The notes beneath the pieces were generated by a model that saw nothing but the letters and a program-made list of their open reading frames with translations, was not told the origin of the DNA and did not search any database. Both the position numbers and the translations under genes were made by a program. A stretch of 64,000 nt of DNA from Halobacillus halophilus DSM 2266 (GTDB taxonomy: Bacteria > Bacillota > Bacilli > Bacillales > Halobacillaceae): positions 4,030,001 to 4,094,000 of the forward strand of contig NC_017668.1 of NCBI RefSeq assembly GCF_000284515.1. The letters are read 5' to 3'. Shown in pieces: positions 13,691 through 36,442 of the stretch. Position 1 is the stretch's first letter, and every line of letters begins with the position of its first letter.

Positions 13691-13695
13691 AAGGC

Positions 13696-15951: not shown

Positions 15952-16004
15952 GTACAAGTACACACCGTTTCGTTTGAACCAAATCATTACTAGAGTTTCA
16001 CAGG

Positions 16005-16487: not shown

Positions 16488-16715
16488 ATAAAACTCCTTT
16501 CACGTATTGCTAGTATTTTTATTTCTATTTCAAGAACGATGAAAACAATATTTGGAATTAATCGTCACTGAATAGATATTCGTAATTAAGTTGATTCAGT
16601 GCAATCTTCAAACCACCAAAATTTCAGAAGGCTATATGGTAAGCGGTGGATATCAATTAAACACTCTTTGGTTAGATACATTCACTTAAATGAACTGAAT
16701 ATCACTTTTTATGAG

Positions 16716-17145: not shown

Positions 17146-17201
17146 TAAAATACACCTTATCATTTTTATTTTCTTATGATAAGAATTCACCCTTCATAAT
17201 C

Positions 17202-18137: not shown

Positions 18138-18213
18138 TTATGGTACGGCTCACCGTAACGTTAAATAGGGTAAACAACGAGATATAAGGAGGTTAACCCC
18201 ATCCTTATATCTA

Positions 18214-18567
18214 TTATTTTCTTATGTATAATCTCAACGTTATACCTAGTACTATCATTGCAAGTGTATCATTTATTCTGCCTACAAAATTTTCACTATA
18301 CTTTAATGCATCATCTATACCTGTATTTATTGCAAGGTAACCAAATCCAGCTAAAAACAAAAGAAGAACAAATAGAAGCAGAAGATCTCCATTATGACCG
18401 TTTGCTTTGTTTGTTATTTTATTAGCTAACCAATCATGAAATAACAAATAAAAAGAAAAGATAGTTGCTGCTAATAACCATATCGGTCTAAGCATCCCAA
18501 AAAAGTTTAGTATTCCTAGTAGGATAATAAGCCATGCTGCTTTTGTTATCCAAGTTTTCTCTTCCAT
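18214..18567 (-). CDS. Small four-helix membrane protein, unknown
   Basis: 117 residues from an ATG preceded by GAGGAAGTG. Four hydrophobic segments are clear: about 10-27, 29-47, 62-80 and 97-112, ending LRLYIRK. No family recognised. It lies upstream of, and co-directional with, the split membrane protein, 76 bases away, and about 160 bases downstream of the DUF6680-like gene. It may be a membrane component carried with the defence block. Confidence 0.5.
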   Translation of the reverse strand: MEEKTWITKAAWLIILLGILNFFGMLRPIWLLAATIFSFYLLFHDWLANKITNKANGHNGDLLLLFVLLLFLAGFGYLAINTGIDDALKYSENFVGRINDTLAMIVLGITLRLYIRK

Positions 18568-18724
18568 ATGACACTTCCTCTAATCATTGGTTTATAATTA
18601 ATTATCTAAATAACAAAACCCATTTTTTGATACCTCATATATACAACCATGCTAGTGTTTTAATATGATGAGCGCAGTTGCTCAATGAACGTCTATTGTC
18701 ACACTACTGACCTTAAATAATTTA

Positions 18725-19105
18725 CTAATTCCTTATATTAAACGCCCTTAAATAAAAACTATCAGTCAGAATTCTAGTATCAATTTTTAGGTCATCACAC
18801 ATATTCTTAAATAATTCCAACAGCCTTTGATTTGTGATATCAGATTCATGGTGTTGGCTACTAATGCTTTCATGAAAAGACTTTAAAGACTGTAATACTT
18901 CTGGAGAATCATTAAATACAATAAACACTTTATTCAGCGCTTCAGAAAATTTATCTCCCTTTAAGTCAAAGCGGTTTCCCATTAGTTGTTCTAATAAATC
19001 GTATTTTTGTTTTCTCTTAACTGAGCGTTTATGATATAAATTTGAAATTATAATACCAATAACACCAGAAAACAGGGATGAAACAAAAACAGTAACCCAT
19101 TCCAT
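18725..19105 (-). CDS. Small membrane-anchored protein, DUF6680-like
   Basis: 126 residues from the ATG at 19105 (AAGGATTG upstream), not the longer frame. One N-terminal transmembrane segment (VTVFVSSLFSGVIGIIISNL) is followed by a basic stretch and a soluble helical domain. That domain holds LLEQLMGNRFDLKGDKFSEA and LNKVFIVFND, which resembles DUF6680 as I recall it. It begins 23 bases after the Mrr-like gene and probably shares its transcript, making it the last gene of the BREX-linked operon. A membrane effector or anchoring role is speculation. Confidence 0.55.
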   Translation of the reverse strand: MEWVTVFVSSLFSGVIGIIISNLYHKRSVKRKQKYDLLEQLMGNRFDLKGDKFSEALNKVFIVFNDSPEVLQSLKSFHESISSQHHESDITNQRLLELFKNMCDDLKIDTRILTDSFYLRAFNIRN

Positions 19106-19127
19106 AATTATCAATCCTTTTTTATTA

Positions 19128-20114
19128 TCACTCTGGCACATACATCTTCTGTAAAGGCAATAAGGCTCGTACATCATTTGGCATTTGCTCATACCACTTC
19201 ACAACTAAATTCACCAATTCCTCCAGGTCTACTAATCTAACAGAGTTATGCTTTGCGACCGCTTCAGCATGCGAAGTAAATCCCCCGGTAGAGACAAATA
19301 AACTATTCGCATCAATTGGGTTTGCACCAAGGAGTTGCTGAATTTCTGGTGCAGATGCAGATGATTTTCGATGCTTTACCTGAACTTTTATAATTGGCTT
19401 TTCAAATCCAAATGCATCTTTAAATGCTAGTACATCCACTCCTCCATCAGGCCCTTTAGGGCTTACCTGAACATTATAATCCATTGCTTGTAATAAACCA
19501 CCTACTAACTCTTGCATTTGCCAGGGATCGAGATTATCTACTTTATCCTGAACCATCACTAATGCTTTATTAACCAGGTCTTGTATGATTTCACTTTCTT
19601 CTTCATCATCTTCATCTATATCCTCAGGTTCTAAGAAAGGGGATTCCACTAACCTTTCAATTTCTTTCCCCCATTCATCAACACGAAATACCGTTAGTAC
19701 TGAGCCTAAACTGTTTTTAGCTGCTTGTGACAAAAGATCCCGTTCTACCGTAACTTCTTCCCAGTCAACGTCTATATGATTAGGATAATTTGAATCTCCA
19801 ATCGACTTATCAAAATAATGGTCACCTGCCACTGTTCCTACCATGTACTCTCTAGTTTCTTTGTAGTAGGTTATTACCTTATCCCCTTTTTTAATGTCTC
19901 TACTAAAACGCCAAACTTGATTTACCCAACTGCTTCTGGATTTCGGTTTACTTTCTTCATAAACTTCATCCGCCATATCAATCATTTCACTCTTTGATTG
20001 AAATTGTTTTGGATCTTCTAATTGCGGCCATCCAATAGATGCAATGCCCTGTTCTTCCCACACTGGAATTAATTCATTATTGTCCCCTGCTCGAACCATC
20101 CACCAACGCTTCAT
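19128..20114 (-). CDS. Mrr-like restriction endonuclease
   Basis: 328 residues. The N-terminal half (MKRWWMVRAGDNNELIPVW, SIGWPQ, VITYYKETREYMVGTV) resembles EVE/McrB-NTD-type modules that read modified bases. An acidic linker follows (EPEDIDEDDEEESE, about 160-173). The C-terminal half is an Mrr catalytic domain: MQELVGGLLQAMDYNV, GPDGGVDVLAF (catalytic Asp), then IIKVQVKHR (Q-x-K). It starts 14 bases after the SNF2-like helicase gene, with a GGGGG leader. The domain pairing predicts cutting of modified foreign DNA, complementing BREX, which would spare host DNA methylated by PglX. Confidence 0.8.
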   Translation of the reverse strand: MKRWWMVRAGDNNELIPVWEEQGIASIGWPQLEDPKQFQSKSEMIDMADEVYEESKPKSRSSWVNQVWRFSRDIKKGDKVITYYKETREYMVGTVAGDHYFDKSIGDSNYPNHIDVDWEEVTVERDLLSQAAKNSLGSVLTVFRVDEWGKEIERLVESPFLEPEDIDEDDEEESEIIQDLVNKALVMVQDKVDNLDPWQMQELVGGLLQAMDYNVQVSPKGPDGGVDVLAFKDAFGFEKPIIKVQVKHRKSSASAPEIQQLLGANPIDANSLFVSTGGFTSHAEAVAKHNSVRLVDLEELVNLVVKWYEQMPNDVRALLPLQKMYVPE

Positions 20115-20128
20115 TTATGAATCCCCCT

Positions 20129-23100
20129 TTAATAAGTAAACATTAACCCTTGATCCAACTGATGCTCTTTAATTCCATGTTCTCTGAGCTCATACACGAA
20201 AACCCGTTCTGTTATATCACTATAATCCTCCAGCACCAGTTGTTGTTTAAACTGATATAAATCGTCAGTGACGACGATCAACCTATTTTCGCCCTCAACA
20301 TCCTCACTAATAAAATCTACGAGTCCAAAAGCAGGTTGTAATTGAACATTCAACCTACCACTTTTCAATTCATACTCCTCAATTAGAGAGAGAAAGTCCT
20401 GAGGAATAACACGTCCATTTGATACACCATTGGATGAAACTTTAAATTGTGCTATCCGCTTTACTGGTTTTAGTTGGATGGAGCGTTCCCGATCAATTTC
20501 ATTCAAACGCTCTTTACTGCGGTCTTCTATTTCATCTATCTGTGCATAAGTCTGGTTGATTAATGCACTATTTTTTCTTTCTACGTTTTCTCTCTGGTAT
20601 TTTTCTAAACGTTGCTGTAATGTTTCAATCTGCTCTTCAAAAGACTTTCTTAAAAAGACTCTTTTTCTATTAGCATAATCCTCTCGCTTACGTTGAATTG
20701 TTTTTAAAAGGTTTCTTGCATGCTTAATGACGTACCGTTTAATGTCTTGGTCTTCTTGAACGAACGTACCCTCCACCTCTAATGTTTGGTGAAATAAGAA
20801 ATAAGGAGAGACTTGGACAAAACCACCATTCTCGCGTTTCCCAGTCATCATTAACTGTTGTTCAAGCTCACGACCATTTCCATCCACAATCGTTACCTGA
20901 TTCAACTCAATTTTCATATCTTCAGGAACGGAGGCTTGAACTTCATAAAATGGCAAAACAGCCTGCTGAATTTCTTTAAAGGTCAATTGCATAATTATGT
21001 TAAACACAGGACTGTCATTTTGTAACATGGAAAGTTGAATAGTTTCTGAGTTCGTAGTTAATGCAAAACGAATAGATTCATCGAAATCAAACATTAACTT
21101 ACGTCCGCGGGCAAAATCACGTATACGTTTAGGAAAACGGTCGATGCGAGCTGTAGACTTGTCTCCCGAGACGCTCACACGTGTCCTCGTACTTTCTAAA
21201 CCTTGTAAAACGAAGTGACCATAGAACCGCCGAGGAATGCTATGGATTGAAACTTTATCGAAAGAGCGTTTAGCTCCTGGTAAATCAAAGTTTTCATCAA
21301 GACGCTCATTCTTAGCTAACTCTAGCAATCGTTCATGTTCTTCGGATAAGGTCTTTTCCATACGCTCAATCACATTATCGAGATTTTCCCTGCCTATAAT
21401 GGATTGTTCCATAATAGAAGGTAAATCAGCCTGATGATCTTCCAATACTTCACCGATGAAATCATATACCAATTCCTGACCAAGGTCTTCCCTCATCTGT
21501 TCCATCTTTGTAAGAAGACGTGAAAGCACATCCCCTTCACGAGTATTTGTAGCTACTAAATTAAAGACAAACACTTCGTTCTTTTGACCGATACGGTGAA
21601 TACGCCCCATTCGCTGTTCCAATCGATTCGGATTCCATGGTATGTCGTAATTTACCATCTGATTACAGAACTGAAGGTTAATGGATTCTCCACCAGCATC
21701 CGTAGCAAGCATGATTTGCAAATCGTTGCGAAACTTCTCCACCTCTTCTTGACGCCTGTCCATGGAAAAACCACCCACAATTTTAGCAATATCCGGTACA
21801 TAAGCCTTCAATTTCTTTTCTAAATAATTCAGTGTATCTTTTGATTCCGTGAAAATTAGTATTTTCTCCCCTTGAGCAAGAAGTCCGTCTGCTCCAAATA
21901 AGGTGCTTTCCAGTTCAAGAAATTTTCTCTCATTCTCCTGCTGCCGTACCACATTTGCTTTGCGGATCAAATGATCAAGCATTTCTATTTCCACCTGAAG
22001 TTCGTCCATATCAAGTTCTTCAAATTCACCTTCTGCATATTGCTCCATCAATTCCTGATCTTCAAAGGAGCTTTCTTCATATTCTTCTGTGTCTATTAAT
22101 TGCTGAAACCTCTGTCCTGTCTCCAAAACTTTCTGCAGTCGTTCTTTTCTTCGTAATAGAGAGAGGTAGATTGCTTCCACAGAAGAGCTAAGCCTCCGTT
22201 GTAAAATCATCATAGCAAAAGCAACATTCGGTTTATCATTCTTTTTCGCACGGTTAAAGTAATGACGTACGTAGTCCGTCACAGCGTCGTATAGCTCTAC
22301 TTCTGCAGAGCTTAACTCGAAACCAAGTGTCTTTGTCGTTCGTTTCGGAAACAAGGGTGTTCCGTCAAATTTAACCATCTTTTCTTTTAACCGACGGATT
22401 ACGTATGGATTACTCTTTTCGAAAATAGAGTCACTTCGATTCAGTTGAGAAAAAATATCATGATCGATAAGGCTCATTAAGTGCCTAAAGTTTTCTTTGT
22501 CTCCTTTATGCGGAGTAGCTGTTAGAAGCATGCAATGTTCTGAATGACGTAACAGGTTCTCCCCAAGTTGAAACATTTTCGTGCGTTTCACTTTTCTTTT
22601 TTTCTGTCCTACTGTGTAAGCTGCCATCTTATGAGCCTCATCTACAATCACTAAATCAAAGTGAGAATTTAGGATCATATTTTTAATATCCTCTCTAGAA
22701 GCCCAATACATGGATGCTATCACTTGCTGGTGCATTTCAAAGGGGTTGGTTTCACCCGAAGCTTTCAAGTAATCACGAGTTATAATTAAGAAATCTTCAT
22801 CGAATTTTTCTTTTAACTCTGCCTGCCACTGTTTTAATACTAGCGGAGGAACTAGAATTAACGTTTTGCGAACCATATTTCGTGCTTTCAATTCCCTGAT
22901 CAGCATACCGGACATAATCGTTTTACCTGCTCCTGGATCATCAGCCAATAGATAACGTACTTGAGGGGCCTGAAGCATCTTACTATAAACCGCTTCAATT
23001 TGGTGAGGCAGAGGTATCATATTCTTATTCCCACGAGCCCGTGCTTGAGAGTATTCTTTTTCTGTTCGCAATACGTGATACTGTAAATAGTGTTGAAAGC

Positions 23101-23308
23101 GATTCTTCCATTGATCTGAAGTTTCGATCTCAGAATAATGTTCCACTTTTTCTAATTGAAATTCTTCTAAATAATTTTCGAAGAATTGATTGGATTCACG
23201 ACCGACAGCTTCTACCAAAAACAACTCCTCATCAATGCTTTCGACATGCTTAATTTGAACAGGCTCTGGCCAGAAAGATCCCCCGACTATTTCACCTTTC
23301 TTGAGCAT
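20129..23308 (-). CDS. SNF2/HepA-type helicase in the position of brxL (BrxHII/DrmD-like)
   Basis: 1059 residues, ATG with GGAGGTG at optimal spacing. SF2/SNF2 motifs: Walker A LADDPGAGKTIMSGM (122-135), DEAH box at 223-226 (VIVDEAHKM), motif III LLTATPHKGD, and helicase C-terminal motifs GGESINLQFCNQMVNYDIPW and NRLEQRMGRIHRIGQ. A long coiled-coil region follows (about 840-930). It starts 27 bases after pglZ. SNF2-type helicases mark other BREX types (BrxHII) and DISARM (DrmD). Here one replaces the Lon-like BrxL of type 1 systems. Likely an ATP-driven DNA translocase. Confidence 0.85.
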   Translation of the reverse strand: MLKKGEIVGGSFWPEPVQIKHVESIDEELFLVEAVGRESNQFFENYLEEFQLEKVEHYSEIETSDQWKNRFQHYLQYHVLRTEKEYSQARARGNKNMIPLPHQIEAVYSKMLQAPQVRYLLADDPGAGKTIMSGMLIRELKARNMVRKTLILVPPLVLKQWQAELKEKFDEDFLIITRDYLKASGETNPFEMHQQVIASMYWASREDIKNMILNSHFDLVIVDEAHKMAAYTVGQKKRKVKRTKMFQLGENLLRHSEHCMLLTATPHKGDKENFRHLMSLIDHDIFSQLNRSDSIFEKSNPYVIRRLKEKMVKFDGTPLFPKRTTKTLGFELSSAEVELYDAVTDYVRHYFNRAKKNDKPNVAFAMMILQRRLSSSVEAIYLSLLRRKERLQKVLETGQRFQQLIDTEEYEESSFEDQELMEQYAEGEFEELDMDELQVEIEMLDHLIRKANVVRQQENERKFLELESTLFGADGLLAQGEKILIFTESKDTLNYLEKKLKAYVPDIAKIVGGFSMDRRQEEVEKFRNDLQIMLATDAGGESINLQFCNQMVNYDIPWNPNRLEQRMGRIHRIGQKNEVFVFNLVATNTREGDVLSRLLTKMEQMREDLGQELVYDFIGEVLEDHQADLPSIMEQSIIGRENLDNVIERMEKTLSEEHERLLELAKNERLDENFDLPGAKRSFDKVSIHSIPRRFYGHFVLQGLESTRTRVSVSGDKSTARIDRFPKRIRDFARGRKLMFDFDESIRFALTTNSETIQLSMLQNDSPVFNIIMQLTFKEIQQAVLPFYEVQASVPEDMKIELNQVTIVDGNGRELEQQLMMTGKRENGGFVQVSPYFLFHQTLEVEGTFVQEDQDIKRYVIKHARNLLKTIQRKREDYANRKRVFLRKSFEEQIETLQQRLEKYQRENVERKNSALINQTYAQIDEIEDRSKERLNEIDRERSIQLKPVKRIAQFKVSSNGVSNGRVIPQDFLSLIEEYELKSGRLNVQLQPAFGLVDFISEDVEGENRLIVVTDDLYQFKQQLVLEDYSDITERVFVYELREHGIKEHQLDQGLMFTY

Positions 23309-23335
23309 AAAAACACCTCCATTTCCCTCTCAAGT

Positions 23336-25831
23336 TTAATACAAGGCTTCATATAGGCGTAAAACAAACTCTTCTTCGAGATATGTTTCCTTACCCTTTT
23401 TAGTTACTGTATCAATTCTCAGTTTACATTTTTCACCTATCTTATAATGCTTTTCAATTAAGCTAAACTCTACTTGCCTATTACGCTCTTTATTTTCCCC
23501 CTTTAGATCAAACACAAGTTCAACTTCATTGGATATTCGCTCATTGCCCTGGTAAAAAGCTGCTCGCACTTTTCGCGATGTGTATTCATCTGTGATACTT
23601 TGTTCCTGATAGAACGACACGGGCACTCGGTAGTTCGAGATTACTTTATTAATCATGGCTACCGCAATATCCACTGGTTGAGCCTTTTCAATGCGACGGT
23701 AATCAATCAAAGGAACAACAGCTTCCTGAGGTAATGCTCCGCCATGGATAAATTGAAGGCCACCACCAGTTTTAAAACGGTTGAGGCTCTTCGCAAGCAC
23801 GACTTCAGCATTTTTTAAAGGAGTTTGGTGCTCAGCTAATTTAATTGCTCCTTCTGGAACTGACAAATCATGTCCAATTGCAAAACGTCGGCTACCATCT
23901 AATACATTCCCTTCAACAGCTGGGATTTTTCCGTACTCCTCAATTTGCTTAAATTGGAACAGAAACCCATGATCCGCAGTGATAAAAATCCGCTTTGCTT
24001 GAAGGCGGGACAAACGATCAACTGCAATTTGTAAATCTTGAATTGCTTGATGAACAGCTCCGTAGGTTTCACGCTCTGATTTAGCTGAATCCCCTAAAGC
24101 GTCAATGTGATCGTGGTATAGGTAAACCAACCGCTTTCCTCTTAATAATTGCTCGGCTTCACTTGTTTTCATATCTAGTAGTTGTTTCAACTTAAAAACT
24201 TCTGTTTGTGATTCAACCGTTTGCAGGATTTTACGGCGGTTATCCATTCCTTTAGTCGATTGTCCATCAGCTAATACACCTTTTTTGTCATCGACTTCTA
24301 GTTGACGATGGGGTAGTAATGACGCCATTCCTAACTGTGTGTAAGTTGGATAACTTGATGCCATCGGTTGAAGACTAGAGCTACCATTTTCACGTTTCGT
24401 TAAATGGTCATGAAGTTCATAGCCAGCTTCATAACGCAAAGCATCTGAAATGATTACGAACACTCTTGTTTGTTCTTTATCCAATATTGGTTGAATCTTT
24501 TCAGAAAAGAATGTTCGCTGTGGCATTATTTTTGGTACATAATCATCTTCAAGTTTGAAATTCATTTCCCCTGATAGACGACCTAAATATTCATTTTCAT
24601 ACCAATTTGTCAGACGATTAGCAACCTCTTCCAACATCTGTTTCGAATCAAGACGTGTGAAATGATCCATGAAATGACGATAGGCCTGATCAATTTCGTA
24701 GAGAGATTCCGCATAATTTTCATAAAAATCACTTTCCTGATGAATTCGATGTACAAAAGTTTTTAAAGTCTCCATTCGAATAGCTTCGTAAAGGGTTTTA
24801 TACAAAGCTCTCAGTTTACCTTTTGAGCCCCAATGGGTCTGCAAGCGTTGCGCAATTAAAGATAAGCGTTCTTCCCCCTGAATTGTTTGATGAAGTAGCT
24901 CATCGATACATTTTTCTATGATCAGAGCATCAACAACAGGGAAGGTGTCTGTTAGAGAATAGTTGGAGATGTCTTGTGTACCTAATTTCTCCCTTACATG
25001 AAATGCCTTCTCCCATTCCTTAATGTGGTTTTCAAGAATATCTGCATCACTCTGCTGAAGCCACTCTTCAATGAAAAGCGAACAAACGTTAGGGGATGAA
25101 GAAATCCAACGCTTTTCCCACTCTTCCACGATAAAATTTGCCTTTTGTTTAAAGTGTTGATAAATAAGTACATTTATCAGCTCTTTGAAAGGTTGGTTTA
25201 GATCACCCAAAGAAACACCAAAATAACGACCAACGATCTCCAGTGTGCGATCTAAGGAGAAGTTACGCTTAATCGCCTTCACAAACTCATTATCTTCCAA
25301 CTGTAAATCAGACGAGAGAACTTGACGTGAGATAACTCTGACGTCAGCTACCGTGGCTTTTGTTATAACGGCCATCATACTAATTTCAAACTGCGTTTCA
25401 TTCGCTTGTTCAGGTAATACTTTATACAGTTTTCTTTTACGCTCTTTGCTATTAAAGAATGACGCATACTTCTCCATCATTGGACGTAAAACCTGGTCTG
25501 ATACGTGTAATGTTTCTGATAGCATAGCTGTTTCATCTGCTTTGAATTCTGTGCTGTATGACAATATATCCAACAATATATTATTTTTGTCGTCGGGTCT
25601 TGGTACATCAGAATAGATTAAATAGGAATCTGTTGCTCTTTGAAGTTCAAGCTCCACCTTCAGTTGAAAAAAGTTTTGATCTGTTAAATACCTAACTTCA
25701 ACACCCACTAATTGTTGGCTTAGTTCATCAATACTCACTTGAGCCTGAGCGTCATACCAAAACACAATCGCCCTACCTTTATTTTCCTTTTCTTGTTGTA
25801 TTTTTTCTTGTAGTTTTTCAATTACATTCAC
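23336..25831 (-). CDS. pglZ: BREX phosphatase-like protein PglZ
   Basis: 831 residues from the GTG at 25831 (GAGGTGG six bases upstream); a GTG nine bases earlier is in frame but overlaps that site. PglZ belongs to the alkaline-phosphatase superfamily: metal-site strand FVIISDALRYEAG near residue 462 and ITADHGFLF near residue 619. The N-terminal part is helical and the C-terminal part beta-rich. PglZ is required for both BREX methylation and exclusion in studied systems. A strong hairpin just upstream, at the end of pglX, may set its level. Confidence 0.93.
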   Translation of the reverse strand: MNVIEKLQEKIQQEKENKGRAIVFWYDAQAQVSIDELSQQLVGVEVRYLTDQNFFQLKVELELQRATDSYLIYSDVPRPDDKNNILLDILSYSTEFKADETAMLSETLHVSDQVLRPMMEKYASFFNSKERKRKLYKVLPEQANETQFEISMMAVITKATVADVRVISRQVLSSDLQLEDNEFVKAIKRNFSLDRTLEIVGRYFGVSLGDLNQPFKELINVLIYQHFKQKANFIVEEWEKRWISSSPNVCSLFIEEWLQQSDADILENHIKEWEKAFHVREKLGTQDISNYSLTDTFPVVDALIIEKCIDELLHQTIQGEERLSLIAQRLQTHWGSKGKLRALYKTLYEAIRMETLKTFVHRIHQESDFYENYAESLYEIDQAYRHFMDHFTRLDSKQMLEEVANRLTNWYENEYLGRLSGEMNFKLEDDYVPKIMPQRTFFSEKIQPILDKEQTRVFVIISDALRYEAGYELHDHLTKRENGSSSLQPMASSYPTYTQLGMASLLPHRQLEVDDKKGVLADGQSTKGMDNRRKILQTVESQTEVFKLKQLLDMKTSEAEQLLRGKRLVYLYHDHIDALGDSAKSERETYGAVHQAIQDLQIAVDRLSRLQAKRIFITADHGFLFQFKQIEEYGKIPAVEGNVLDGSRRFAIGHDLSVPEGAIKLAEHQTPLKNAEVVLAKSLNRFKTGGGLQFIHGGALPQEAVVPLIDYRRIEKAQPVDIAVAMINKVISNYRVPVSFYQEQSITDEYTSRKVRAAFYQGNERISNEVELVFDLKGENKERNRQVEFSLIEKHYKIGEKCKLRIDTVTKKGKETYLEEEFVLRLYEALY

Positions 25832-25851
25832 GTCTTCCACCTCTATATGTA

Positions 25852-25884
25852 AACAAAAAGAGGAGAAGATCTCCTCTTTTTGTT
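25852..25884 (-). terminator. Intra-operon hairpin overlapping the pglX stop
   Basis: Arms of 15 bases (AACAAAAAGAGGAGA and its exact complement) around an AGA loop, followed by TTACATATA on the minus strand and containing an internal CTTTTTG tract. It covers the pglX stop codon and ends 12 bases before the earlier pglZ GTG. It could partly terminate or protect the upstream mRNA, splitting brxA-pglX from pglZ-helicase-mrr expression. Confidence 0.6.
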
Positions 25885-28800
25885 ACTTAATCTTTGCTAG
25901 TACATTATAAAATTTAGCGTAGTTCATTTTAACACCATCGTCTAAATCAATATCAATTTGTTCATTCGCATAAGTAGCTAAATGCTTATCAAACTCTTGT
26001 AGTTCATCAATCTTTTTCTGAAAAGCTGTCCTAGATTTTTCTAAGCTACGACGATCAGTCGCGGATAAACTTGGATTAGCTAAACGTGTATCAATCATGT
26101 CAATTTCATTTTGGTATTTCGATTGAATTTCTTGTAAATGCTCAAACCGAATCGTTGCCATTGTATCTGGTTGGTAACGATGCATATAGATGAGCGTTCG
26201 CAAACCTTTTTGTTTACCTGAATCAACTAACCAATAAATTGGTCGTTTTTGATAGGTTTTACAATGGTTTTTAAAAAATTCGTCTAAGAAATAACGGCGT
26301 AGTCGTTCTTCTGGTGACTCATTTTTCTTTATTATTAATGATTCAGCTAACCATTCCATATTTTCATCTACTGTATCTGGACTAAAGGTAACTGAGAGAA
26401 ACTCACGTAAACGTACAATAATATCTTTATCAAAGTAATGATCATCTGTTAATTGAATCAGACCATAATGGTTTGGTATAAATTTTTGATAAATCGATTC
26501 ATCAAATTGACCACCTGCATAAGCGAGCCCTTCAACATCTAATGAGTAACGGCCCATGACACAACCAATAAAGTAAGATAAAAATGATTTAGTATTATTT
26601 ATACGACTTTCATTTCTTATTGTAATATCTTTTTCTTCAACTTTTGGAGATAACTCCCCTTCTAAACCATAAGTCTTGATAAATATTTCATTTAAACTTT
26701 GCTCATTTTTTCTTAGTTGCTGAATGTAGTTATTAACTTTTTCTTTCCAACAACTATTTGCCTCAGAAATTTTTTCAATTTCTTTTATATTAGTTATAAA
26801 TGGGTGTTGTTTAAAATCCCATGATATTTCATATGACTCCCATTCATCCTTGGCTATTTGTACACTGCTCTCTACTAACTCTTTTACTAAATTTCTATTA
26901 GTTGGTTCAATGATTGGTAAACTTTTTAAATCGCCGGTTTGAAAACTAATGGTTGGGTTTAATAGCTCTAACATTTCACTTGAAACTTTTGAAGTTAAAA
27001 AGCCTAAAATGATAGATAAAAAATCTTTGTTATTAGTAAATAAGGAAGAACCTTTGACATCAAAAATAAAGCCTTTCGGTGAATATCTTATTCCAAAATA
27101 CTGTGAGTTAACATCCGACCATGTCAAACCTTCTCTAAAGTAAAAATTAATGTTTTTAACCGTCCTAGTGTAATTCTTGTATTTGCTAGTTGCAAGTTCT
27201 TTTATTTCTTCTCCATCTTTTTCCCAATTTACCACATAGTACTGATTTCCATACCATTTTCTATAGGCACCTCCTTTATTATATGGGAACCATTTTTTAT
27301 TACTATTTTTAGCTTCGATAAGGTTGGACATATTAAAACCAATATCTTCAACCCCAACCTCATACCATAACCTCAAAAACCTATCGTTGTTTCCAGTTTG
27401 TAAACCCGCCCTTGGTTGGGCAATACCCCCTAGTTCATTGTGATTTTTAAAAGCTGATTTTACAGATTCCGTTGCCCAATAAGCAATGCGATTACCAGGA
27501 AAATTAAAAAATTCTTCACTTTTATGAATGTATTTATATGACCTATTTTCTTTAGCCGCCTCTTTAACTAAGGAAGAAAGTTCGGTAGATTTATATTTTG
27601 AAAGTTTCAGGTAGACCCCCAAAGTACTTTTGGTTTGTTTATGAGCTACAAAAGCACAAATTGGAACAGTTGCTTCACTAAATGCAGAATAATTTAAATG
27701 AATTAAGCTTGATAATGCAGATTTTTGTAAAAGGTTTTTTCTTAATTTCTCGTGAGTAGATATGAACATCCATGTATATGGTGTAACTAATACAAAGTAA
27801 CCATTATCTTTAGTTATAGTTTTGGTCTGATATATAAACGAAGAATACAAGTCAGTTTTATAATCTTTATACTTTTCATTCATATATTTTTTCAGCACTT
27901 TGTTGTATCTACTATGATAGGGCGGGTTAGTTATAACCACTTCATATCTTTGATATAATAAATTAGCTTGTTCGATTATAGGTAATAACTTGACCTTTAG
28001 TTCTTTGATATAAGATTCATCAAGTAAATTAACTTTTTGGTCATCTAAGTTATATAAACGATTAATCCATTCCTCATAAGGTAATTCAATTGGATTTATT
28101 AATGACCCAAATTGTTTTCCATTCTCAAATTGGCTTAATAATTCGTTGATGAATGACTTTTCCATTTTATTTTCTGCAAAATAATTAATAGCCTCCTCAG
28201 ATAATGTTTGATCAGCCTCTACTATTTCATATACGTTCAATTTTGGACTCTTACCTTTTCGACTAAGCCTTGAAATAAAACGTGGTTGTTTTTCAGCTGC
28301 CTTCATCAGGAGTGCAAAGTTCGCAATTTGCTGAGCACGTTTATCTATATCCAAACCGTAGAGATTGTTTTCCAAAATTAACTGTGGTATTTCTCTTGAT
28401 GGATAACCTGCTTCTTCATACATATCGTATAACATATCAAAAGAGTAAATTAAAATGTGTCCAGACCCACACGCGGGGTCCATAATTTTCAAATCTTCTA
28501 ATGAATCAAACCTGGGATATAGATGATGGTTTTCTTTATGTTTAAAATAATACTCCCAATGCTGTGACAGTTGATTATCTTCGTATTTCTCATCGTAAAG
28601 TTTTCCTAATGAATTTTGTACCATGTATTGTACAATCCACTTAGGTGTGAATAATTGAGTTACTACAGGTAAGTCTTCCTTTTTCACTGCATTATTTCTT
28701 AGTCCACCAACTTGTTCCTTCTTTTCAGACATGTAATATTGGTACAGCCAGCCTAATACTTCGACATTATCTGAACGCACACCGTCTTCACGTACATGAT

Positions 28801-29401
28801 AGAAGTTTTCATCAGACAATTCATTTACAATTTTACGTATAATCGACTCCTGGTCTAATAAATAATCGGGTAATAATAGCTCTGTATAATCTTCAATCTT
28901 TTCAAATAAGAAAGGCAGTAGCTGGTTTAAAGCATTACACTGGGCAATGAGCAAACTTCGATAGGCTTTTTCATTATCTCCTTCTTGTATGCTTTCACTC
29001 ACTTTTTGATGTTTAACATCTAAATTCATAGTTTCAAATTGCAATAAAATGTCAGGATCATTTTTACCCGTACTACTTGATAGCACGTTGACTTTATCCG
29101 GTAGATAATTGTTTACTTCCATATAGCGCATAGCAATAATTCTGTTAAACCACGTATATGAAATTTCCTCGATTAATTGATTGTATCCTACGTTGTTCAA
29201 ACGTTGTTGTAATGTACGAAAAGATTGCTTCATTTCTGTATCATATGATTTACCGTTCACGTACAATTGTCCGTAGTTTTCTTCAACCTTCAATTCCTGA
29301 TCATTTTCAGTAATGCCGTATTGCTCTGCTTTCAATGAAACTTTATCTATCAGGTCACGCCTGGCTTCTACAGCAAATCTCTTCAACTCTGCTTTATTCA
29401 T
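25883..29401 (-). CDS. pglX: BREX adenine-specific DNA methyltransferase PglX
   Basis: 1172 residues from the ATG at 29401 (AGAGGTGAAACG upstream); the frame extends 15 codons further without a good site. SAM-binding motif MDPACGSGHILIYSFD near residue 305 and catalytic NPPY motif (VVITNPPYHSRYN) near residue 490 identify an N6-adenine methyltransferase. The C-terminal two-thirds include the target-recognition region (PRAGLQTGNNDRFLRLWYE, then FQTGDLKSLPIIEP). PglX methylates a non-palindromic site on host DNA so BREX can tell self from phage. It is full-length for the family and intact. Confidence 0.95.
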   Translation of the reverse strand: MNKAELKRFAVEARRDLIDKVSLKAEQYGITENDQELKVEENYGQLYVNGKSYDTEMKQSFRTLQQRLNNVGYNQLIEEISYTWFNRIIAMRYMEVNNYLPDKVNVLSSSTGKNDPDILLQFETMNLDVKHQKVSESIQEGDNEKAYRSLLIAQCNALNQLLPFLFEKIEDYTELLLPDYLLDQESIIRKIVNELSDENFYHVREDGVRSDNVEVLGWLYQYYMSEKKEQVGGLRNNAVKKEDLPVVTQLFTPKWIVQYMVQNSLGKLYDEKYEDNQLSQHWEYYFKHKENHHLYPRFDSLEDLKIMDPACGSGHILIYSFDMLYDMYEEAGYPSREIPQLILENNLYGLDIDKRAQQIANFALLMKAAEKQPRFISRLSRKGKSPKLNVYEIVEADQTLSEEAINYFAENKMEKSFINELLSQFENGKQFGSLINPIELPYEEWINRLYNLDDQKVNLLDESYIKELKVKLLPIIEQANLLYQRYEVVITNPPYHSRYNKVLKKYMNEKYKDYKTDLYSSFIYQTKTITKDNGYFVLVTPYTWMFISTHEKLRKNLLQKSALSSLIHLNYSAFSEATVPICAFVAHKQTKSTLGVYLKLSKYKSTELSSLVKEAAKENRSYKYIHKSEEFFNFPGNRIAYWATESVKSAFKNHNELGGIAQPRAGLQTGNNDRFLRLWYEVGVEDIGFNMSNLIEAKNSNKKWFPYNKGGAYRKWYGNQYYVVNWEKDGEEIKELATSKYKNYTRTVKNINFYFREGLTWSDVNSQYFGIRYSPKGFIFDVKGSSLFTNNKDFLSIILGFLTSKVSSEMLELLNPTISFQTGDLKSLPIIEPTNRNLVKELVESSVQIAKDEWESYEISWDFKQHPFITNIKEIEKISEANSCWKEKVNNYIQQLRKNEQSLNEIFIKTYGLEGELSPKVEEKDITIRNESRINNTKSFLSYFIGCVMGRYSLDVEGLAYAGGQFDESIYQKFIPNHYGLIQLTDDHYFDKDIIVRLREFLSVTFSPDTVDENMEWLAESLIIKKNESPEERLRRYFLDEFFKNHCKTYQKRPIYWLVDSGKQKGLRTLIYMHRYQPDTMATIRFEHLQEIQSKYQNEIDMIDTRLANPSLSATDRRSLEKSRTAFQKKIDELQEFDKHLATYANEQIDIDLDDGVKMNYAKFYNVLAKIK

Positions 29402-29449
29402 CGTTTCACCTCTGTATGTAGAGGGGAGATAATTTACCTGCCCCATGGA

Positions 29450-32400
29450 TTATGATTTAACAAAATAGTATGTTTGTAATTCTCTTATTAAATTTCTTTT
29501 TAATGACTCAATTGCCCGCTCCAAGTCTTCTTCAGAATCAATACTATCAACTTGGTTAAAGAAAGAATCATATAATTCTCGCTCGGTAATAACCTTTGGT
29601 TCTCTCTTAACAGCATCTGATTCCTCTCTTAATTCTTTAAGCATCTGCCGTGTTTTGACTTTTGTACAATCAATCAGCTCTCTTAATTGTTGTTGATTGA
29701 TACGCGCACTGGAAATACGTTCACTTTCCTTTATCTTTTCATAAAGCTGACTAGCTTTGTTCGTTCTTAATTGGATGTATTCTGTTATAGTTTCATATTC
29801 TGAATATTGATCATTTAGGGTCTCTAGTTCATTCATAGATTTATTAGATTGTACAAGTACTGCCTGTTTTTGATTATTGGTTTCATCTTGGATAAGGTTC
29901 TTCAGGTTATCCACTAACTTTGGTAACTGACTGATATCTTTGGTTGGTTCTTCCTGTAACAAAATTTGTTTCATCCGTCGTACGATTTCACCTAGCTCAT
30001 CATTATGAATGACTTCTATGTCCTGTTCATGTTCAACTAAAGCTTTAACCGCTTCATCAAACTTGACGATAGGATTTCCTTCATAAAAGCCTTGAAGCTT
30101 CTCTAAAATGTCATACCACTCTTCAATATCATCTTCGTACTGTATGAACGTGCGACAAAATTGCTCTGGATCTCGGTTAGCCAGTAATTTTTGTGTTCCA
30201 TTGACTACAGTTCTTATATCACTTTCGCCAGGATACGGATATTCACTTGTGGTATCCTGTTGGCGTCTTCTTTCACGTACCTTTTCAATAGGACGAACAA
30301 ATTCTTCTTCTACTTTTTCTCTTATTAACTCGTCATAAGAATCATACGTATCGTACGGTTGAGTAATCGAAAAGAAATCTCGTACAAGTGCAATCAGTTC
30401 TTGTTTCAGCTTATTATCCATTTCTACAATTGGAAGAACAACTATGCGATCGCGTTCAGACAATTTTTCTAATCGATCATAAAATTGGTTTGATTTAGGT
30501 GTAAAAGGTTCTCCCGCATACATAAACCGTACTTTCCCTGCATTCATTAACCCCATTAAAATACCGATCGTATCTTTTTCTTCCCAACCATAAGGAATCG
30601 TCTTATATTTTTGCACGACTTGTTTTAGTGTTCTTTGATCATGAAAACGTTCAAGTTCTTCTATAAAATACTTCATCTCATCCATTGCATTCTTATTTGT
30701 GTCGCTAAACAAACTTTGTTGTCCCAAATCCTTTACGACTTGCTCCCATTCTTTCTTGTTGTCCTTAAAGGATATAGGCTTTTCAATATAATCTAATTTC
30801 TCAAATGTACTACGAACCAACATATTCATAGCCTGATCGATTTTGTTTTCAAACTTGCCACTGAAATCACGACGTTGACCTTGAATGTAAAAGCTGGCAT
30901 TGTCACATGCTTTGGCCAACAGTTCTTCAGCTTTTTCTGCGAATTCATCCACTTCTCCAAGTTTTAATTCATAAATCCGCTTTTGCTGCTGTGAAGTTGT
31001 ACTAGTTTGCTTGCGTCGTACATAACTATCTACCTGTTGAATATATGCAAGAGCCCTCTCTGCTTCTGCAACTAGATCTTTGTTCAGGAGAACGATTAAA
31101 TACCCAGAATTTGCCTTAGAAATCGCTTCTGAATCTGTCATTCCCTCAGAAAAAACTTGTATGGTCAATTCGTGGTTCATCTGTCCTTTCACATAACTGT
31201 CAAACCGCTTATTAAAATTAAAATGTTTTGTCTGGCCATTATACTTATATTCATATTTCGGGTGAAGGTACATGGCATTAAAAAAGAGATTGCCTAATCG
31301 TTCTTTCACAGCAGAACCGTTGTAGTCTTCTACGCGTATTTCACGATTAATTTCTTGTTCTTCGTCTGATAAGAATGAATAGGAACCATCTGCGTGCTGC
31401 TCAATGAACATTATAGTCTGAAGCCGATTCAACGATTCTTTTATTTTGTATTCCAGCGGTTGGCGTTCATCGTAAACCGTTTCAATCATGAGTGTTGCAA
31501 TGTTGCTTGGTGTAGATTTGATTTCATCGATTCCTTTGATTAGATAGAGAACTTCCAAAACTTTTACGTCGTACTCTTCTAACCCTTCCTGGTTACGGGC
31601 ACGATCTTGCGCTCTTGCGATTGTACCCGTAATCGATGATTCAAGGTAATCACGAATAGAAGGATAAAATTCTGCCATAGTAACCATATTATCTACATTT
31701 TCTTCAGCATTTAATTGGGCAGCTTCCTGGAAAGCTTTAAGTAAGGAACGTTCACCTCGAGAGGTGTGCTGCCCACCTTCTCCCAGATTACGGATTTTGG
31801 TGAAGACTAACTGCAGTAACTCAATTTGATAAGGAACAAATGGGTAAAAGGAAACGAATTCTTCGATATTACGGTAACCGGAACGCAATTGAGTGTTATT
31901 CGTATCAAAAGCCAAACGGTTATGAATCAGTTTTCCTTCTTGGTCATGAATAGTATTTAGTGTATCAGCACCAACTGGTTCTTTCTCCAAAAGACGTTTT
32001 TTAATTACTTCATCTGTATTCGCACTGGATAAGTTAATTTTTGTCTCAAAACGTCCTTGGATTTTAGAAAAGTCTTTCGTACTGTCTAAATCCGATACGG
32101 TTGACTCAAGTTTTTCCTGTGATGTGACGATTATCCATGCCTGACCATGGCATAAATCCCCTAGTTTTTCTGTAATTGTTTGTAGATTGAGCATTAAGCT
32201 TGTGTTGTTGCCAATATACTGCCCAATTTCATCGGCAAGGAAAACGATACGATAATCTGGTCCCTGACTTTTACAATAATCAGCAACGAGTTCTGCAACT
32301 CGTTGAGCATCAATAGAAAACCATTCTCTGCTCATATCAAAGAATGTTTCCGCCGTATCTTGGTCATAACCTACTGTTTCAAGAGCTTTTATAACTTTTC

Positions 32401-33013
32401 TTTTACGTAATAAAATTTTCAAACGGAGTTCTTCCCAAGACTTACCGTTTTGATCAAAGATTGTTTGTTTGAATTCTTCGTATTTCCCATCACTATCTAG
32501 TTGGCGTTCCATCTCAGCAACCCATAAGGTATCTGAATATCCTAAATGATTATTAAACACTCTCAGAAACACTTCGATAATACGCTCTTTTTCCGAATCC
32601 TTAGAAGAAGATGTAGAACGTGAATCGATATTGAATAATAATGCATCCGATTTTTTCTCGGATACTTGTTGCATCATGTTCAGAAGCTCCTGGTTTTCGG
32701 ACTTGTTTTCAAAATAATCAGCAGGTGTTTTACCTGCAATTGTCTGATTATGTAATAAATAAGATAGGATCTTTAAGAAGTGTGATTTACCAGACCCAAA
32801 GAAACCCGAAATCCATACACCCACTTTTGTTGAGGGTTGATTATAGACAGCTAAATAATTCTTATAAAATCTCTCAAGATAATGCTCACTTTCTTCGGTC
32901 AGGACGTATTCATCCAATTCCGTTTCCACTACGTCCTCTTCTACTTGTTCAGCCTGAACGACGTTATTAATTGGACGAAATATATCTTTTTCAAATAGAT
33001 CTTTAATCTGCAT
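29450..33013 (-). CDS. brxC: BREX ATPase BrxC
   Basis: About 1187 residues from the ATG at 33013, with GGAGGGG upstream; the ATG three bases earlier is equally usable. P-loop FFGSGKSHFLKIL near residue 72 and Walker B VFLADEIGQYIG near residue 259 give an AAA+ ATPase of the BrxC/PglY (DUF499-related) class. The C-terminal half is largely coiled coil. BrxC is a core BREX component whose ATPase activity is thought to organise the complex. It ends 48 bases before pglX and follows brxB by 13 bases. Confidence 0.93.
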   Translation of the reverse strand: MQIKDLFEKDIFRPINNVVQAEQVEEDVVETELDEYVLTEESEHYLERFYKNYLAVYNQPSTKVGVWISGFFGSGKSHFLKILSYLLHNQTIAGKTPADYFENKSENQELLNMMQQVSEKKSDALLFNIDSRSTSSSKDSEKERIIEVFLRVFNNHLGYSDTLWVAEMERQLDSDGKYEEFKQTIFDQNGKSWEELRLKILLRKRKVIKALETVGYDQDTAETFFDMSREWFSIDAQRVAELVADYCKSQGPDYRIVFLADEIGQYIGNNTSLMLNLQTITEKLGDLCHGQAWIIVTSQEKLESTVSDLDSTKDFSKIQGRFETKINLSSANTDEVIKKRLLEKEPVGADTLNTIHDQEGKLIHNRLAFDTNNTQLRSGYRNIEEFVSFYPFVPYQIELLQLVFTKIRNLGEGGQHTSRGERSLLKAFQEAAQLNAEENVDNMVTMAEFYPSIRDYLESSITGTIARAQDRARNQEGLEEYDVKVLEVLYLIKGIDEIKSTPSNIATLMIETVYDERQPLEYKIKESLNRLQTIMFIEQHADGSYSFLSDEEQEINREIRVEDYNGSAVKERLGNLFFNAMYLHPKYEYKYNGQTKHFNFNKRFDSYVKGQMNHELTIQVFSEGMTDSEAISKANSGYLIVLLNKDLVAEAERALAYIQQVDSYVRRKQTSTTSQQQKRIYELKLGEVDEFAEKAEELLAKACDNASFYIQGQRRDFSGKFENKIDQAMNMLVRSTFEKLDYIEKPISFKDNKKEWEQVVKDLGQQSLFSDTNKNAMDEMKYFIEELERFHDQRTLKQVVQKYKTIPYGWEEKDTIGILMGLMNAGKVRFMYAGEPFTPKSNQFYDRLEKLSERDRIVVLPIVEMDNKLKQELIALVRDFFSITQPYDTYDSYDELIREKVEEEFVRPIEKVRERRRQQDTTSEYPYPGESDIRTVVNGTQKLLANRDPEQFCRTFIQYEDDIEEWYDILEKLQGFYEGNPIVKFDEAVKALVEHEQDIEVIHNDELGEIVRRMKQILLQEEPTKDISQLPKLVDNLKNLIQDETNNQKQAVLVQSNKSMNELETLNDQYSEYETITEYIQLRTNKASQLYEKIKESERISSARINQQQLRELIDCTKVKTRQMLKELREESDAVKREPKVITERELYDSFFNQVDSIDSEEDLERAIESLKRNLIRELQTYYFVKS

Positions 33014-33026
33014 CATTTTCCCCTCC

Positions 33027-33575
33027 TCATGAAATTCGAGATAGTTGATAGTCATCTTCATAATCCAGAATACTGAATAACTTCAACCTTAACCCTGTAA
33101 ATTCCCCTGGGTAAAAAAGCACGATAGGCTTCTTGTACCCTTTACTTGAAATAGCTTTTAATAACTGGCTTGATCTTAAGAAAGGGTGTGCTGTGCCAAC
33201 ACCAGTAATGAAAATTAGCTCCGCTTCTTCTGTCATATCTTTAAATTGCTGGATCATTGTATTACCCTCGTTAAGAATTGGCTCGATTACATCATTTAAC
33301 CCACGTAGACCCTCCTCTTCAGCCACTTCATACAATTCTTCCATTTCATCCTCTTCAAAAAAGGAGAGCAGAAACTCAAATAAGTTCACCTCTCTAATAT
33401 TTACCTTGGTACGTTTCAACATGTTTTTTAAATATACACGTACTTGCAACTCGTCCTGCGGCGGATAATCCAGTACAAAATGAGGAATATCACTCCCGAT
33501 GCCTTTGGGGTTCGTGAATCCTTCCTGGTTGATCCTCTTCTCCATTTGCTCTAAGCGTTCATATGTCGATTTCAT
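33027..33575 (-). CDS. brxB: BREX protein BrxB (DUF1788)
   Basis: 182 residues, matching the DUF1788/BrxB size of about 190-200. The C-terminal part FITGVGTAHPFLRSSQLL, then KKPIVLFYPGEFTGLRLKLF, is characteristic of BrxB. The middle is acidic and helical (FEEDEMEELYEVAEEEG). It overlaps the brxA stop by four bases. BrxB is needed for BREX defence in studied type 1 systems, with no catalytic motif known. Confidence 0.92.
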   Translation of the reverse strand: MKSTYERLEQMEKRINQEGFTNPKGIGSDIPHFVLDYPPQDELQVRVYLKNMLKRTKVNIREVNLFEFLLSFFEEDEMEELYEVAEEEGLRGLNDVIEPILNEGNTMIQQFKDMTEEAELIFITGVGTAHPFLRSSQLLKAISSKGYKKPIVLFYPGEFTGLRLKLFSILDYEDDYQLSRIS

Positions 33576-34174
33576 AATTCATTCACCTTTTCTAAGACTG
33601 TAAAAGAATATAATAAAGGATCATTCTTTTCAGCATATGTTCTTAAGGATTGAGTCATATGTATCGGATTTATTGAATATTTCGTCTGATCCACCTTTTC
33701 AATCATCTTGGCTTCTTTAAAGAACAAGCTTAATGACCTTATAAGACGCTTAATTGTTTCAGGTCTCCAGTTACTAACTTTGTCGTCTGTATTAGCCTTT
33801 TCTTCAAAGAAATAATGAAAGTCATTCGCATATAACGACTCTTGAAGTTCATATTTATAGACGATTCTTTCCCAATAAAACTCTAAAGGAATGCGATACA
33901 CATCCAAAAAAGAATACAATGTCAAAGCCTTCCTGTCGTAATCAACGGCACTTAAAAAATGTTGTTGTAGTTCATCACCTAGGACTGCCGCTCGTCTATA
34001 CACCATATTATATCTATTCTTTATACTGACTGGGCTTCGCAACTGGAATAGATTCTTCTCAGTTACTTCTTCTAATATTTCATTCTTAGTTTTATTTTGC
34101 TTCATGAGTTCAATAACGATATACATCTCATGTTCTGACCATTTTTCTTTAGTAAATCCGGCTGAATAGTGCAT
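33572..34174 (-). CDS. brxA: BREX protein BrxA (DUF1819)
   Basis: 200 residues from the ATG at 34174, preferred because AGGTGA sits six bases upstream; the GTG nine bases earlier overlaps that site. The sequence YSAGFTKEKWSEHEMYIVIE and the later SPVSIKNRYNMVYRRAAVLG match BrxA. This protein family has a winged-helix-containing fold and binds DNA. It is the second gene of the leftward operon, after the small leader gene, and is followed by brxB with a four-base overlap. Confidence 0.92.
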   Translation of the reverse strand: MHYSAGFTKEKWSEHEMYIVIELMKQNKTKNEILEEVTEKNLFQLRSPVSIKNRYNMVYRRAAVLGDELQQHFLSAVDYDRKALTLYSFLDVYRIPLEFYWERIVYKYELQESLYANDFHYFFEEKANTDDKVSNWRPETIKRLIRSLSLFFKEAKMIEKVDQTKYSINPIHMTQSLRTYAEKNDPLLYSFTVLEKVNEL

Positions 34175-34201
34175 ACTTTTCACCTACATTCTCTTTCCCT
34201 C

Positions 34202-34462
34202 TCATTTATTACGGTTAGAGAGAATTTTGTTTACAACTTCTAACCTTCGTTTACCACATTGTTGCTTTAAAACAGTTGTAAAATCCCCGTCCTTTAAAAA
34301 CTTAGTGTCGTTGTTTTTATAAAGGTTATGTACCAGCCCTATCATCTGTTCTTCTTCGATCTCGTCGTTCCAATATCGATCGATAACATTATTAATTGAT
34401 GAAGCCAGATCTCTTTGTGTTTTATGGAAGAGTTTTATACCCACCCAGTCCACCTCACTCAT
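34202..34462 (-). CDS. Small leader gene of the BREX operon (TIGR04540-like)
   Basis: 86 residues from the ATG at 34462. An in-frame TTG at 34516 is rejected because it coincides with the -35 hexamer of the operon promoter. The core KTQRDLASSINNVIDRYWND, then EEEQMIGLVHNLYKNND, then TVLKQQCGKRRLEVVNKIL, strongly resembles the uncharacterised TIGR04540 family as I recall it. It is helical and basic at the end. It lies 27 bases before brxA on the same transcript, so a regulatory or BREX accessory role is plausible. Confidence 0.65.
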   Translation of the reverse strand: MSEVDWVGIKLFHKTQRDLASSINNVIDRYWNDEIEEEQMIGLVHNLYKNNDTKFLKDGDFTTVLKQQCGKRRLEVVNKILSNRNK

Positions 34463-34487
34463 CTTACTTTTTTTATACTTATCTCTT

Positions 34488-34516
34488 ATTTTATAGGTAG
34501 TTCTATGGTTGCACAA
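34488..34516 (-). promoter_or_regulatory. Predicted sigma-A promoter of the BREX operon
   Basis: TTGTGC (-35, 34511-34516) and TAAAAT (-10, 34488-34493) on the minus strand, spaced by 17 bases, about 25 bases before the ATG of the small leader gene. It is the only good promoter seen upstream of brxA. The 220-base region to the divergent ABC gene holds no other clear element. Confidence 0.55.
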
Positions 34517-34736
34517 TAGCTAGCAGATAAATATACAAAAATTTTCCTAGACACCACATTTTATCTTCACACAAGGAATGATGGTTGTTTCATCAGCGTC
34601 TGGGAAGATAGCGGTTGTCATATTACTGTGGATTTATAGTTTTATTTTTCTAATATTCTGAAACCTCTAATCACCGGCATACGTATGAGAGTCAGTTAAT
34701 AATAATTACGGTGTTAGAGGGAAAGGAGACAGTTCT

Positions 34737-35648: not shown

Positions 35649-35665
35649 GAAAAGGAGGAATCCCT

Positions 35666-36409: not shown

Positions 36410-36413
36410 AAAT

Positions 36414-36442
36414 AAAGCCTTCAGATTAGACTGAGGGCTTTA
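36414..36442 (+). terminator. Terminator of the ABC operon
   Basis: AAAGCCTTCAG / CTGAGGGCTTT stem with a six-base loop, directly after the permease stop; the T-tract is short. Confidence 0.65.

Follow-up and report, generated by a model that had tools for sequence, protein, structure and literature searches.

The bacteriophage exclusion (BREX) operon of Halobacillus halophilus DSM 2266 that occupies positions 34516 to 18725 (minus strand) of a 64,000-nt stretch of NC_017668.1 (hereafter the window) joins a type 1 core to a RapA-like SNF2 helicase. We conclude that this operon is a real and recurrent BREX variant, partly anticipated in print, and that it probably represents a Bacillales sublineage in which a SNF2 translocase is the last core gene instead of BrxL. 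The observations concern the gene content, the absence of BrxL, the mutual exclusion of the two motors beside pglZ, the clades, a swapped PglX middle part and the insertion of the operon as an island.

Genes were called with Pfam, NCBIfam and PADLOC family models, scored in bits against the model cut-off where given. Nine genes follow one another almost without gaps:

34202-34444, minus strand: leader, TIGR04540 family, 80 aa (NCBIfam, 107.5 bits, cut-off 50)
33572-34183, minus strand: brxA (PF08849, 171 bits; PADLOC BrxA)
33027-33575, minus strand: brxB (PF08747, 103 bits)
29450-33016, minus strand, open frame from 33061: brxC ATPase (NF033441, 1061 bits, cut-off 400)
25883-29401, minus strand, open frame from 29446: pglX adenine methyltransferase, BREX-1 type (NF033452, 1311 bits, cut-off 500)
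23336-25840, minus strand: pglZ, BREX-1 type A (TIGR02687, 539 bits, cut-off 270)
20129-23308, minus strand: RapA-like SNF2 helicase, 1059 residues (PADLOC PDLC02620, 1105 bits, residues 1-1044)
19128-20114, minus strand: Mrr-type nuclease, 328 residues (Mrr_cat PF04471, 80.9 bits, cut-off 21)
18725-19105, minus strand: optional DUF6680 protein with a hydrophobic N-terminal stretch (PF20385, 33.5 bits, cut-off 23.2)

Intergenic gaps measure 18 nt (leader-brxA), 42 nt (pglX-pglZ), 27 nt (pglZ-helicase) and 14 nt (helicase-Mrr), and brxA shares 4 nt with brxB. For the leader the most likely start is GTG 34444 rather than TTG 34516, since the nearest relative carries an in-frame stop a short distance upstream. 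The starts of brxC (33016) and pglX (29401) are the most likely ones because they lie near the onset of the family-model alignments; that of the DUF6680 gene is most likely 19105, the longer frame overlapping Mrr. Every gene named in a preliminary description of this DNA (leader, BREX core, SNF2 helicase, Mrr, DUF6680) is present and passes a family model. The single promoter proposed there found no such backing: a consensus scan listed no site on the minus strand immediately ahead of the leader, and a hairpin lies between pglX and pglZ.

Recurrence and ancestry of the helicase-closed operon

No match to BrxL (PF13337) was found anywhere in the genome (4.17 Mb, three contigs, completeness rated 100%), and the helicase stands at BrxL's position, as the preliminary description held in reading the locus as a type 1 core with a helicase instead of brxL. 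Neither a brxL elsewhere in the genome nor a neighbourhood confined to one strain accounts for this arrangement: the order pglX-pglZ-helicase was found in 18 further loci, a small EVE gene being interposed between pglZ and the helicase in L031. We surveyed type-A PglZ in 199 genomes sampled at the level of the order and 299 at that of the phylum, each set including our own genome, which gave 41 loci in total. Type-A PglZ was found in 18 order-level genomes: seven, our own included, have a full-length helicase beside pglZ and no BrxL in the genome, seven others have BrxL beside pglZ, and four have neither (G035, G049, G136, G139). At the phylum level it was found in 24 genomes (G319 lying below the cut-off), 23 of them other than our own; BrxL lies beside pglZ in 19 of these and is missing there in four (G237, G272, G374, G403), and none of the 23 carries a full-length helicase on the pglZ contig. 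Pooled, the 41 type-A loci comprise 7 with the helicase, 26 with BrxL, 8 with neither and none with both.

Searched with its own model, the helicase has ten full-length or split copies in the 199 genomes, three of which lie outside a type 1 core, in a type 3 layout (G127, G172, G173). Among 84,980 species genomes, where only close relatives were retrieved, 17 loci match: 12 have the type 1 core, L057-L059 show the type 3 gene order as judged by length and position, and L055 and L060 are partial. The helicase is the last core gene in both layouts. Judged from these gene orders, the operon is a recurrent Bacillales lineage and not a one-strain hybrid.

In a PglZ tree of 43 rows, all 19 helicase-linked rows fall on one side of a branch with support 100/100. 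This tree holds 18 of the 26 BrxL loci (L088, L091 and L098 were left out, the others being unfetched or partial) and six of the eight loci with neither motor. Helicase-linked PglZ is one deep clade, at odds with the recent patchwork implied when the system was first called a hybrid. Two helicase trees (39 and 36 rows) place the window helicase with those of type 1-core and Bacillota type 3 loci in a clade supported at 100/100. The second omits five truncated, identical or long rows of the first and one fragment (L122), and the split helicase of G173 (L039) was excluded from all trees. Within the clade, L034 is BREX type 3 by PADLOC models (BrxF, BrxC, PglXI, PglZ, BrxA), and the other Bacillota type 3 loci were typed by layout. 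Outside it, on long branches and with unsure placement, lie the helicases of the proteobacterial BREX-3 loci L123 and L124, that of L081, a plasmid locus with named BREX-5 genes, and those of the DUF499/DUF1156 loci L075, L076, L078, L080 and L082 (the large neighbour of the DUF1156 gene in L078 carries a name taken from its HEPN part). The window helicase is far from those sampled at loci with named BREX-3 or BREX-5 genes. These trees firmly support a single helicase lineage serving two BREX cores. They also lend moderate support to the helicase having moved between type 1 and type 3 cores more than once: the type 1-core rows L031 and L032 cluster with type 3 helicases at 97/94 and 97/97.

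Among solved proteins, RapA is the nearest by sequence (3.2e-37). It was also matched by fold over 946 columns (E 8.1e-17), from a weak helicase model with a mean predicted local distance difference test (pLDDT) score of 57.

Several observations weigh against our interpretation. Eight of the 41 type-A loci have neither BrxL nor the helicase beside pglZ, so a motor may be dispensable in some type 1 systems; two of these (G272, G403) are partial pglZ matches where a contig end may hide the neighbour, and two (G237, G374) have BrxL elsewhere in the genome. G319 has both motors on separate contigs, BrxL beside pglZ and a full-length helicase elsewhere. Salmonella BREX can protect without BrxL, according to PMC12205998. 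Support for a helicase exchange between type 3 and type 1 cores is moderate: in the smaller tree set the fork that joins L031 and L032 to type 3 is supported at 90/93, and grouping all type 1-core rows together is narrowly rejected by the approximately unbiased test (AU p = 0.039, with five near-identical rows and most outgroup rows omitted). Finally, the fold match to RapA has a TM-score of 0.18 and both fold models are poor (mean pLDDT 45 for Mrr, 57 for the helicase), so the folds are too weak for domain claims.

Proposed mechanism and competing explanations

The biochemical steps that we propose are all modelled on published work on other BREX proteins. PglX, together with BrxB, BrxC and PglZ, would mark host DNA at sites set by the central domain of PglX, and unmarked phage DNA would be recognised by the same complex. 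The SNF2 motor would then be loaded and would move on or remodel the phage DNA, allowing PglZ to nick it and replication to be blocked. This would correspond to the step attributed to BrxL in typical type 1 systems, with Mrr as an optional second line outside the core. PglZ is described as a metal-dependent nuclease (PMC12205998), and BrxL, like the SF2 helicases of types 2 and 3, has been proposed to unwind DNA (PMC12839542). The end motor of BREX is an exchangeable part, one SNF2 lineage closing two cores with mostly different other genes, and the role of BrxL becomes testable by asking what both motors have in common.

A simpler explanation would be that the operon is a plain Bacillota form of BREX type 5, a type 1-like core with BrxHII, leaving nothing more to explain. 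The gene content is alike (A, B, C, X, Z and an SNF2 helicase), PMC12839542 describes helicases in BrxL's place in types 5 and 6 and a resemblance of BrxHII to RapA, and L081 likewise has a helicase beside pglX. We nevertheless regard this as unlikely. The BREX-1 models give PglZ 539 and PglX 1311 bits, far above what these proteins reach with the BREX-5 models (PglZ 56 bits against a cut-off of 250, PglX 267 bits against 900), and the L081 helicase is 29% identical and sits on its long branch outside the clade. L081 also has two large genes of BrxC size, and its pglX lies on the opposite strand from most of its operon. It seems more improbable still that the helicase and Mrr form a separate two-gene helicase-nuclease system merely sitting behind BREX, even if their best PADLOC labels are DrmD and PDC-S02 rather than BREX and Mrr is also seen following HsdR of a type I system (L065) and Res of a type III system (L068). 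Indeed, the helicase follows pglZ in 19/19 type-A loci of the clade (in L031 with the one small gene between), Mrr being present in 11/19; the distance from pglZ to the helicase ranges from -17 to 27 nt across the 15 close loci, and the type 3 loci fetched yielded no Mrr relative.

Least credible of all, in our judgement, is a DISARM (defence island system associated with restriction-modification)-BREX hybrid in which the helicase is DrmD and brings in DISARM function. The helicase has a model named DrmD as its best PADLOC match and also scores 226 bits with a DrmA model, and PglX reaches 1037 bits with a DrmMI one. When the helicase was compared with DrmD profiles, as the preliminary description had proposed, the NCBI DrmD equivalogs were missed by far (357.6 bits, cut-off 610, and 218.8 bits, cut-off 950), and by these cut-offs the helicase is not DrmD. 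The same PADLOC model gives 1228 bits on the helicase of a type 3 BREX locus, and its label therefore fails to tell the families apart. The MZB domain (PF09369), taken as a stand-in for DrmB, has no match in the genome. Kinship to class 1 DrmD was judged by model score, the trees containing no curated class 1 DrmD. We thus retain a type 1-core sublineage closed by its own SNF2 motor as the probable explanation.

Variable parts: PglX, Mrr, hairpin, leader and insertion site

The nearest relative, G078, belongs to another family. The unit from leader to Mrr (window 34519 to 19130) is 87 and 94% identical at the DNA level between the two, except that PglX residues about 203-952 (numbered in the longer frame) are replaced, with no blastn similarity there. 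PglX is 53% identical and the other seven proteins from leader to Mrr 84-98%. Across the 16 PglX rows of the close set, residues 601-920 are the most variable (mean pairwise identity 0.30-0.38), compared with 0.74-0.87 at residues 1001-1120. Because the middle of PglX is both replaced in G078 and most variable in the close set, its target specificity is probably swapped as a cassette. L035 and L044 each have two pglX genes.

The Mrr gene follows the helicase in 11 of the 19 helicase-type loci, directly in 10. The family (E up to 1e-30) was found in 15/199 genomes, right behind this helicase in two (G000, G078), and G177 has a more distant copy about 8.7 kb downstream. Elsewhere the region after the helicase holds GmrSD (L046), an MTES_1575 helicase-nuclease (L044, L046), a Z1-domain protein (L050) or a KAP NTPase (L035); L044 has Mrr besides its helicase-nuclease, and in L046 GmrSD occupies Mrr's position. 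Six other Mrr places were fetched (L065-L070). The same family lies directly behind HsdR and Res in L065 and L068. In L066 an unscanned gene of Mrr's length takes the same position as in L065, in L070 Mrr lies near a PLD-helicase of type IV label, and the few neighbours scanned in L067 and L069 included no recognisable restriction gene. Judged by this distribution, the Mrr family is a mobile, optional nuclease that attaches to the ends of different restriction operons, outside the BREX core.

The residues D...(Q/E)xK, which we take to be the Mrr catalytic motif, are kept in all nine aligned rows as read by eye. Of the base-reading type attributed at first to the Mrr N-domain, what stands is a weak EVE match (best E = 0.041, in three of nine members, with a fold model of pLDDT 45), and a profile search against solved structures found nothing. 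Since Mrr is facultative and portable, the attack on modified phage DNA ascribed to it earlier amounts to a guess. In type I, type III and BREX systems the methylated base is mostly adenine. Mrr cutting all N6-methyladenine DNA would harm such hosts, so we infer that it reads another mark or awaits a signal from the system. Outside our own copy, DUF6680 had a tblastn match only in L051 among the loci collected at that stage. As further observations on added genes, the EVE-domain gene of L031 is free-standing and spans 14602-15138, and L063 carries a Cas9-like gene (HNH_4, RuvC; 13837-17100) behind a BREX core without BrxL.

The hairpin between pglX and pglZ is as follows:

25852-25884, minus strand (the scan gave the plus strand; the sequence is palindromic): attenuator-like hairpin of 15 pairs

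In 18 of the 19 helicase-type loci, the window included, the pglX-pglZ gap folds at -12.5 to -34.4 kcal/mol (computed without a shuffle control), and inspection of these gaps by eye shows inverted repeats whose sequences differ. In the remaining locus, L052, where pglX is broken, an inverted repeat is visible too. Among 12 other loci, the BrxL loci L071, L072, L073 and L159 fold clearly and L063 less neatly; the gap is too long to fold in L062, L074 and L153 and measures at most 21 nt in four type 3 loci. The hairpin may lower expression of pglZ and the downstream genes.

The result that a specialist would least expect concerns the leader. It was surveyed in the 199 order-level genomes and in plasmid, phage and viral collections. 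TIGR04540 exceeds its cut-off in 16 of the 199 genomes (matches at E up to 0.001 occur in 18), and all 16 leaders head a same-strand defence operon of a methyltransferase-bearing kind, -17 to 279 nt from the next open frame:

BREX with this helicase: G000, G078, G177
BREX-1 with BrxL: G089, G083, G165, G188, G048, G125
Rearranged BREX-1 without BrxL, next gene 279 nt away: G139
BREX type 3: G127
DrmA-DrmB with type III restriction-modification (R-M), DISARM-like: G122
HKD-SNF2 with type III R-M: G042
Type I R-M: G025
DruE with a IIG enzyme and SNF2 helicase, Druantia-like: G013
DUF499/DUF1156: G166

The methyltransferase gene itself was seen in 15 of these operons; in G083, brxA, pglZ and BrxL alone were seen. 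Both plasmid hits likewise head such operons. The leader is present in 10 of the 18 type-A PglZ genomes and so is not universal in BREX. In L151 (G139) we also noted three weak, apparently broken extra leader copies inside the rearranged BREX locus. Upstream of the leader lies a short element:

34462-34480, minus strand: 19-bp box, identical in 8 of the 16 leader loci

The box stands 15-20 bp before the leader start codon and repeats AAGTA 11 bp apart. Seven of the eight leader loci without the identical box have a related A-rich stretch starting AGTAA. In 1.5 Mb of other loci the sole exact copy was our own region again (L161). The exact box has five matches in viral contigs, at none of which tblastn (E up to 0.001) found a leader gene, so the box alone is not diagnostic. 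The window leader with about 115 bp upstream is 87% identical over 219 bp to that of the type I operon of G025 and 78% identical over 334 bp to that of G013; the similarity ends near 34560, and the operons behind these leaders are unrelated to that of the window. A phage origin of the leader was considered and rejected, no match being found in phages, PHROGs or viral contigs. No known RNA element was found at the leader in Rfam, and no mention of TIGR04540 or CLB_0814 in the literature searched.

In our tentative judgement, a little short of evenly balanced, leader and box may form a portable Bacillota control cassette for methyltransferase-bearing defence operons. The small leader protein, or the leader transcript, would act at the box and time or hold down expression, such that modification precedes restriction when the operon enters a new host. 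If so, the cassette would be a Bacillota counterpart of BrxR, letting defence operons swap behind a common switch shared by BREX types 1 and 3, DISARM-like, type I and III R-M, Druantia-like and DUF499 systems. It would suggest that many Bacillota methylation-based defence operons are governed by a single small control gene, with consequences for how a host can take up such systems and survive.

The operon lies in an inserted stretch:

16049-34640: inserted stretch at a defence hotspot (blastn against the same-genus loci L168 of G019 and L167 of G001)

In G019, DNA matching window 14812-15954 and 34643-36416 adjoins with 234 bases between, leaving an empty site. In G001 the left match reaches 16048 and a type I R-M system (hsdR, hsdS, hsdM) occupies this site. 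The approximately 18.6 kb from 16049 to 34640 are therefore an insertion at a defence hotspot. Nearby, 16687-17133 and about 38030-38480 match one same-genus DNA at about 85% and 84-92%, forming a duplicated stretch that flanks the island and an ABC transporter. A second mobile insertion is probably represented by 10867-14811, which carries DnaB and DnaD-like replication genes and is absent from G019.

Relation to known systems

The division of BREX into types reportedly goes back to Goldfarb 2015. The window operon has the same five core proteins as type 1, in the same order, all passing BREX or BREX-1 models. Type 1 has BrxL at the operon end, where the window has the SNF2 helicase, and since BrxL is missing we do not file the operon as canonical type 1; most core proteins of the BrxL loci L071-L074 share 22-41% identity with their window counterparts. 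A literature search for BREX lacking BrxL gave no match. Helicases in BrxL's place and add-on nucleases are already known, which makes this operon a further variant partly anticipated in print. PMC12839542 (2026) reports add-on nucleases beside BREX, PD-(D/E)XK nucleases being the commonest auxiliaries; its available text does not set the Bacillota helicase apart and contains neither "DrmD" nor "Mrr".

Haloarchaeal type 5 likewise combines a type 1-like core with an SNF2 helicase, but has different PglZ and PglX families, a distant helicase and two genes of BrxC size. Membership of type 5 was rejected on PglZ, PglX and the helicase, this lineage being represented by two haloarchaeal rows, both far outside the clade (L081, and L077 without a listed BREX neighbour). 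Nor do the BREX-6 models reach their cut-offs (PglZ 84 bits, cut-off 400; PglX 364 bits, cut-off 900). DISARM DrmD and RapA, the nearest solved structure, have the SNF2 motor in common with the operon; DrmB and DrmC are not among its listed PADLOC matches, and a DISARM link was rejected on the DrmD cut-offs and on the PADLOC label that also covers the type 3 BREX helicase. BREX loci with the type IV enzyme GmrSD similarly carry an add-on nuclease, the window having an Mrr catalytic domain instead, as type IV Mrr-like restriction enzymes do.

The WYL regulator BrxR resembles the leader as a regulator-position gene heading diverse defence systems. It differs from the TIGR04540 leader, which has 80 aa and no Pfam match (scanned in the longer frame), and is mainly proteobacterial, with 6 homologues in 607 Firmicutes genomes (PMC9122601). 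Components of the type 3 core (BrxF, PglXI, type 3 PglZ) are not among the matches listed for the operon proteins, and the proteobacterial BREX-3 loci L123 and L124 have another helicase lineage, located between the methyltransferase and pglZ. By contrast, the Bacillota type 3 loci fetched end in the same helicase lineage as the window operon, within the 100/100 clade, and the type 3 locus of G127 has the same leader family.

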